Origin: Baffinella frigidus
Lineage: Eukaryota; Cryptophyceae; Cryptomonadales; Baffinellaceae
Assembly (NCBI GenBank): GCA_026770585.1
Contig: MU646650.1
Span: forward strand, 245,822 to 269,731
DNA length: 23,910 nt
Direction: 5' to 3'
Part shown: piece after piece, positions 162 to 23,745 of the stretch
Layout of the letters: every line of letters begins with the position of its first letter
Position numbering within the stretch: position 1 is the first letter of the stretch
Notes under the pieces: model-generated
The model's database searches: none
What the model was told of the DNA's origin: nothing
Seen by the model: the letters and a program-made list of their open reading frames with translations, nothing else
Translations under genes and position numbers: made by a program

Positions 162-240
162 GCCGAACCGGTACGTGGTACTGGAAAAGTTCAAGAAGAT
201 GCCGCTCCTGCTTTCCAACGACCGCAAGAAGCGCAACGCT
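162..240 (+). CDS. Exon 1 (visible): basic N-terminal segment
   Basis: The acceptor follows a telomere-like C-rich stretch (CCTGAACCAG). The exon enters with 1 base and exits in phase 0 at donor GTACGT. It reads [15 protein letters not shown] then [11 protein letters not shown], which is basic, probably helical, and has no recognised fold. The exon end plus donor recurs at about 418-434 and 498-515. An upstream exon must exist outside the window because the entry phase is 1. Confidence 0.55.

Positions 241-23745: not shown

Follow-up and report, generated by a model that had tools for sequence, protein, structure and literature searches.

Beside many exons of the gene analysed here, the adjacent intron carries a diverged partial copy of the exon, often reaching across a splice site. 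We asked how such copies, called echoes below, arise and whether exon borders are where they are made. The window, a stretch of 23,910 bases on contig C342 of a 382-Mb assembly (1364 contigs) whose spliced genes show it to be eukaryotic, holds most of one gene on its + strand, in which 23 exons were placed from splice sites and reading frame. Their joined translation contains an EF-hand pair (4e-15) and a cyclic-nucleotide-binding (cNMP-binding) domain (7.9e-8), and in the rebuilt gene model the median length is 74 nt for exons and 918 nt for introns. The reading frame is unbroken through exon 19; the exon 19/20 joint is out of phase in the model, so either one border is wrong there or an exon has been missed. 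A gap or masked run occupies window positions 13212-13284.

Exon echoes within the window

An initial annotation of the window had described partial copies near at least 14 exons. We aligned 30 such echoes, namely its 26 coordinates plus 21733, 22250, 22749 and 22881 for four further copies of exon 22 that it had left unplaced, each to its exon, 40 nt of flank included, and set the scores against those of 300 dinucleotide shuffles and of 300 places elsewhere in the window. Five echoes (exon 4 at 3691, exon 6 at 5185, exon 16 at 15101 and 15404, exon 21 at 20004) were realigned with tighter limits against 1000 other places. Every control, shuffled or elsewhere, was beaten by 28 of the 30. The exon 1 echo at 418 (13 of 14 nt) tops all controls by a single score point, and two echoes are marginal: that of exon 1 at 498, matched by 13/300 shuffles and 39/300 places (1/1000 in the tighter test), and that of exon 16 at 15404, where 4/1000 places score as high. 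The latter sits within 15397-15506, a 72% duplicate of 15094-15203. The remaining 27 stand well above the controls.

A search of the whole window with the exons only (E<=0.01) found 19 places outside the exon's own position, all on the same strand and all in an adjacent intron, while the reversed window sequence gave 1 match; alignments inside the exon itself, including an internal repeat of exon 10, were dropped from the counts. Ten exons have echoes by whole-window score (4, 5, 8, 10, 11, 12, 16, 18, 20 and 22) and six more by local score (1, 6, 14, 15, 19 and 21), so that one or more echoes are present for 16 of the 23 exons; the initial observation is confirmed. Four echoes are new: a tail each for exons 10 and 12, and two heads for exon 19 (Table 1). 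Copies often lie across splice sites; the copy of exon 14 near 12908 is intron flank only. No local echo above chance was seen for exon 3 (both sides) or, on the downstream side alone, for exons 7 and 9. The local test of exon 17 yielded nothing but a telomere-like match, and exon 23 had no match in the whole-window exon search. Exons 2 and 13, where tandem arrays reach or nearly reach the 3' splice site, were left out of the echo counts. The array at 1097-1811 consists of 6.3 copies of a 114-nt unit and ends 4 nt upstream of exon 2.

Table 1. Echoes of the window gene's exons, in window coordinates
Feature	Position	Strand	Remarks
Exon 1	162..240	+	short tail echo 417-430; marginal one 495-509
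Exon 4 head echo	3212..3273	+	real exon 3375-3447; 62 nt including intron flank, 81%
Exon 4 tail echo	3688..3710	+	238-nt insert between echo and exon, 98% simple repeat
Exon 5 tail echo	4522..4570	+	real exon 4059-4130; 385-nt insert contains 222-nt hairpin element
Exon 6 tail echo	5192..5219	+	real exon 5021-5128; tighter local alignment
Exon 8 head echo	6006..6087	+	real exon 6729-6810; intron flank in common with echo 6444..6562
Exon 8 second echo	6444..6562	+	nearly full-length, with flank; lacks donor GT at end
Exon 10 head echo	7383..7409	+	real exon 7790-7852
Exon 10 second head echo	7521..7563	+	
Exon 10 tail echo	8019..8038	+	absent from initial annotation
Exon 11 tail echo	9089..9177	+	real exon 8799-8879
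Exon 12 head-side copy	9573..9719	+	real exon 10010-10173; mostly intron flank; partner 9872-10016
Exon 12 second head echo	9791..9871	+	partner 9957-10041
Exon 12 tail echo	10329..10382	+	absent from initial annotation
Exon 14 3' splice-site echo	11612..11655	+	real exon 13070-13143; 7 exon nt
Exon 14 second 3' splice-site echo	11779..11816	+	7 exon nt
Exon 14 intron-flank copy	12892..12924	+	junction not covered
Exon 15 tail echo	14387..14436	+	real exon 14213-14256
Exon 16 head echo	15094..15126	+	real exon 15614-15728
Exon 16 second head echo	15190..15255	+	
Exon 18 full echo	16503..16579	+	real exon 16151-16221; lacks acceptor AG
Exon 18 tail echo	16763..16815	+	
Exon 19 head echo	17511..17539	+	real exon 17716-17803; absent from initial annotation
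Exon 19 second head echo	17612..17631	+	absent from initial annotation
Exon 20 head echo	19083..19125	+	real exon 19459-19514
Exon 21 head echo	20001..20022	+	real exon 20101-20178
Exon 21 tail echo	20439..20468	+	
Exon 22 inner head-side piece (q13-40)	20930..20958	+	upstream of exon
Exon 22 head echo	21230..21273	+	real exon 21357-21458; abuts hairpin element
Exon 22 tail echo	21733..21816	+	
Exon 22 tail echo	22250..22318	+	
Exon 22 tail echo	22749..22801	+	
Exon 22 tail echo	22881..22939	+	

Echoes in other genes and their order

The window gene continues into the readable part of the next 10 kb (L005), where echoes were found at 6 of the 8 exons placed. We also measured the density of local pairs, with simple repeats and hairpins masked, in the window and in further stretches; of 24 stretches sampled, 5 were partly readable and 19 wholly N. 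Per 10 kb of unmasked sequence the window has 28 pairs, L005 38, L023 47, L024 19 and L025 (contig C600) 60; L021 has 10, on 1 kb of unmasked sequence only.

Echoes are also present in other genes, the analysis of which the initial annotation had proposed as a check. Searching the genome with a kinesin profile yielded 45 matches on 21 contigs, from which 12 short matches were hand-picked, one per contig and before the sequence was seen, and taken with 900 nt on each side; this sample left out seven contigs (C2, C23, C62, C82, C131, C289 and C942). Exon echoes (E<=1e-3) occur at 6 of these 12 loci on other contigs, one of them weak (L036, which has no other local pair). Local pairs of any kind number 8, 9, 6, 0, 11 and 10 at the six loci with echoes, exon pairs included, and 5, 1, 0, 0, 1 and 0 at the six without. 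Two further contigs, C506 and C112, were taken separately because overlapping profile matches hinted at echoes, and both have them. Reversed controls for the 14 kinesin loci gave 1 match (L033), and L029 has one 16-nt opposite-strand match, on the exon itself. The phenomenon is widespread among the sampled loci, but uneven. In L028 (C112:293401-294900) a stretch of 600 nt holds three copies of the end of one kinesin exon, which differ mostly at third positions.

The partial echoes counted follow one rule: pieces from the head of an exon lie upstream of it and pieces from its tail downstream, an echo being head-like when the midpoint of the match falls in the first half of the exon. For the window gene and L005 together (E<=0.01), 13/13 upstream partial echoes are head-like and 14/14 downstream ones tail-like; 27 of the 30 echoes in this set are partial, 3 are full-length and none is on the opposite strand. 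For the kinesins (E<=1e-3), where the unit is the profile match and not the whole exon, 13/13 upstream echoes are head-like and 10/10 downstream ones tail-like, 5 of these 23 coming from the two loci chosen for hinting at echoes. The rule is thus obeyed by 50/50 partial echoes, a count in which several echoes may share an exon and are hence not independent. This order rules out copying of exon pieces to random nearby sites, and it provides a simple, countable signature that tells a target-duplicating insertion from random copying.

Placement and shape of the duplications

Pairs of similar stretches in the window were counted with simple repeats, hairpins and the 114-nt array of intron 1 masked. 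The copies are direct and close: 45 pairs are local and same-strand, against 3 distant same-strand and 4 opposite-strand pairs (2 local, 2 distant). More than half of the local pairs join intron to intron (24/45). Exons, about 11% of the unmasked bases, are touched by 21/45, a higher proportion than that share predicts, several of these being exon 22 and its copies. Among the four opposite-strand pairs only one touches an exon, an inverted 94-nt copy, 95% identical, at 17792-17885 / 19535-19628 that includes the last 12 nt of exon 19.

Exon borders as the focus of duplication are not clearly supported. At E<=0.01 the fraction of bases covered by local same-strand copies is 0.338 for exons and 0.245 for introns; it is 0.338 and 0.227 at E<=1e-4, and 0.243 and 0.159 at E<=1e-8, and circular shifts reach exon values as high in fractions 0.117, 0.067 and 0.108 of cases, respectively. 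Local copies span 12/46 exon borders, against 23% of random deep-intron positions. In a more sensitive border search, extending 1.5 kb to each side and dropping windows with more than 12 masked bases (which reduced 46 junctions to 34), a copy scoring at least 28 was found at 17/34 junction windows and at 321/1256 intron tiles (26%); opposite-strand controls gave 1/34 and 64/1256. Compared with non-overlapping tiles (81/314) this is a 1.9-fold excess (Fisher P 0.005), and at scores of at least 32 P is 0.019. At score 36 (10/34 vs 61/314, P 0.18) and score 40 (8/34 vs 46/314, P 0.21) the excess is no longer significant. The modest excess of weak, presumably old, border copies can be put down to an exon partner that is slow to change. 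A mild preference for exons as duplication targets may also exist, but the echoes seem to belong to a general local duplication and not to a process aimed at exon borders. Of the proposal that the introns grew by repeated local duplication across splice sites, then, local same-strand growth, often across splice sites, stands; the focus on borders lacks clear support.

The two copies of a pair are seldom adjacent. Over 19 stretches, 10 of 193 local pairs abut, still 10 after extension through masked sequence, and 183/193 have the form repeat-insert-repeat, with a median insert of 166 nt in the 38 hand-listed window pairs. When 15 young pairs (at least 93% identity over at least 40 nt) were extended without masking, 1-9 of the 15 nt in their flanks were identical, about chance level. 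Since these young copies already fail to abut and have unlike flanks, simple tandem duplication of long units that later decayed is rejected for most pairs. The inserts include an excess of simple repeats, which make up at least 60% of 11/176 inserts against 1.8% of matched intervals (P 4e-4); nearly pure cases are the insert between exon 4 and its tail echo and those of two L025 pairs (96-99%). Of the 38 hand-listed inserts, 8 contain whole hairpin elements, where random intervals would give 3.7 (P 0.015, with one of the 23 hairpin spans, 12612-13019, left out of the test). Pair identities peak at 85-92% and reach 98-100% in only 7/193. A steady process would not give such a peak with so few pairs at 98% or above, and a past burst is one reading to which this points.

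The 23 inverted-repeat spans total 3.4 kb of the window. By eye, hairpin (MITE-like) elements of ~160-190 nt at 13977-14144, 18402-18563, 20206-20395 and 21062-21229 form one family, and those at 2117-2256, 11255-11394 and 20575-20730, with ends TTATCCGGGGA...TCCCCGGATAA or close to these, a second. The stretches 4587-4741 and 7205-7357 are 81% alike and by eye resemble the copy at 20575-20730. Terminal sequences of one hairpin family matched no prokaryote or viral contig exactly. In introner- or MITE-borne introns the ends of element and intron should coincide; by coordinates the hairpin elements here lie inside introns, 4848-5016 ending 4 nt before exon 6 and 21062-21229 at a head echo of exon 22.

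Origin of the copies

The echoes are probably one visible face of insertions flanked by a direct repeat of their target ("partially tandem" duplications), which would have occurred in many introns. An ancestral arrangement X-R-Y would become X-R-insert-R-Y, with R mostly 20-150 nt and the insert, mostly 50-450 nt, being a simple repeat, a telomere-like array, a hairpin element or other sequence. Staggered breaks or paired nicks whose overhangs were filled in, and whose ends were then joined with filler DNA, could be the cause. Where R was wholly intronic nothing would be lost, and where it lay wholly within an exon the insert would presumably break the gene and be lost. Where R lay across a splice junction, only the copy still attached to the rest of the exon would be kept as exon, and the other would stay in the intron; heads then come to lie upstream and tails downstream, as observed. 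The apparent enrichment at exons may come mainly from selection, which would hold the exon partner and leave its echo recognisable for longer. The interpretation in the initial annotation should thus be broadened to take in introns as a whole and not splice sites alone, and its mechanism narrowed to insertion with a duplicated target. Against this explanation count the third-position excess described below, the scarcity of pairs at 98% or above, the share of exon-touching pairs, the junction excess at low scores, the one opposite-strand exon pair, and L036.

If echoes simply decayed beside a fixed exon, one would expect mismatches at similar rates in all three codon positions, with the third-position rate at most about doubled by synonymous changes in the exon. 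Mismatches at positions 1/2/3 were 6.7/7.9/17.2% for the window gene and 4.7/5.2/23.9% for the kinesins. The 19 pairs that also align into intron differ at 5.8% of first and second positions, 20.3% of third positions and 16.5% of intron positions, the last being biased low because alignments end where similarity fades. Among 259 changed codons 62% are synonymous, where random change would give 26%, and 2 are stops (0.8%, against an expectation of 3.1%). Indels number 7 in 2510 exon nt vs 25 in 1736 intron nt. The most similar class (at least 94%, 7 pairs) has changes at 9/80 third and 2/159 first and second positions. CpG as the source of the excess is not supported, non-CpG sites giving 5.6/5.8/20.2%, and the direction of third-position change shows no strong GC-to-AT drift (86 vs 71, flanks and simple repeats included). 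At sites of the window gene covered by at least two echoes, changes private to an echo are distributed 13:11:15 over the three positions, those shared by all echoes 2:1:6 and others 0:1:3; its single-echo sites, which cannot be polarised, are third-biased (14:22:43). In the kinesins the third-position excess runs throughout (private 12:7:25, shared 0:1:9, other 0:1:10, single-echo sites 1:5:12). That the extra copies were left to decay thus agrees with the polarisable changes of the window gene but not with the data as a whole. Some of the third-position excess can come from changes that the exon underwent between the birth of older and younger echoes; not all of it is accounted for.

This excess would be explained by repair from a diverged template, in which the second R would be copied from a divergent homologous chromosome before end joining, so that echoes would be born different and coding-like and would decay later. 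The preponderance of synonymous changes with few stops and few indels in exon parts, the third-position bias already present in the most similar class and the rarity of pairs at 98-100% would all follow. We nevertheless think it rather unlikely: it needs very high heterozygosity, private changes in the window gene are spread evenly across the three codon positions, and a search of the assembly with the exon 16 region returned only that region and its local echo, although alleles may be collapsed there. Doubtful likewise is the fuller picture in which simple or foreign DNA enters during break repair and a divergent homologue serves as template for the second flank, so that introns would have become densely packed with fossils of other alleles and of earlier exon versions; if true, dated and polarised snapshots of coding sequence would be preserved beside every gene touched. 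Improbable, in our judgement, is the strong form of the original idea, a process tied to splicing or transcription that prefers exon borders. The junction excess at scores of 28 and 32 and the share of pairs touching exons speak for it, set against the loss of significance at higher scores, border and exon coverage within the range of random positions and circular shifts, and the plentiful intron-intron copies.

The coding-like divergence, together with a splice dinucleotide at the echoed junction in 15/17 heads and 14/16 tails (in part a result of locating the echoes by the junction), would also suit alternative or mutually exclusive exons under selection. This is very unlikely, given that nearly all echoes of this gene are partial, that AG directly precedes only 2/23 tail echoes and GT directly follows 0/24 head echoes, and that all 3 full-length echoes lack one splice dinucleotide; use of an echo as a mini-exon was rejected because the second splice site is nearly always missing. 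We give hardly any credence to an assembly artefact that set haplotype pieces or collapsed repeats side by side. The assembly does have gaps or masked runs, one of them within the window, but divergence between copies is mostly 2-30%, five instances of the exon 22 end lie in 1.5 kb with no gap, and 19-60 local pairs per 10 kb were counted in five of the six stretches.

Insertion with a duplicated target has relatives among known events. Partially tandem duplications in rice were reportedly treated by Vaughn and Bennetzen in 2014. As outlined in a later account, rice has tandem and partially tandem insertions of 10-1000 bp with extra sequence from nearby, attributed to asymmetric nicks and end joining (PMC7407515). 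The likeness lies in direct, close copies with extra sequence between them; unlike that description of the rice genome, ours concerns one assembly without alleles, in which copies cover about a quarter of the window's unmasked intron bases. In the potato RdRp gene, a single tandem duplication across an intron-exon boundary made a new intron (PMC4974935), whereas here extra copies lie inside existing introns, at many exons. Intron gain through tandem duplication and break repair has been reviewed (PMC3443670) and shares with our case duplication at close range and the short direct repeats that gap filling leaves behind. Similarity between the donor and acceptor junctions of one intron was no higher than between introns (2/22 above the 95th percentile, mean 11.9 vs 10.9), so the introns do not look newly made by such routes, and birth by AGGT duplication left no signal in this test. 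For mammals, telomeric repeats inserted at breaks, sometimes with duplication (6/130 rodent and 4/25 primate loci), have been described (PMC2246262); telomere-type inserts occur here too, as just one of several kinds. Searches on duplication, intron gain and intron growth in an open-access library, from which most subscription papers are absent, turned up no title or abstract opening that describes such a density, or the order rule, at exon borders.

The component events are thus of a known kind, at an unusual density. Intron growth is usually credited to transposons; here much recognisable growth seems to stem from small repair-type duplications. Setting echoes against the living exons from which they came could allow mutation, selection and the age of intron growth to be measured within one genome.

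Telomere-type heptamers (CCCTAAA, CCCTGAA, CCCTCAA) have their C-rich strand as the sense strand, 220 vs 20 in 16 loci (the window, L005 and L027-L040). The bias holds with genes on both genomic strands, L031 alone being opposite (1 vs 3), and some heptamers lie just upstream of the 3' splice site (exons 9, 17 and 23). CTAAC-like units could perhaps serve as branch points, and TTTAGGG in the sense direction would offer decoy acceptors. Finally, judging from a 26-residue protein stretch that runs across exons 12 and 13 (10140-10173 and 10686-10732), exon 13 may be an echo of exon 12's end that has become coding; the DNA match is weak, with 10 of at most 2000 random places scoring as high.
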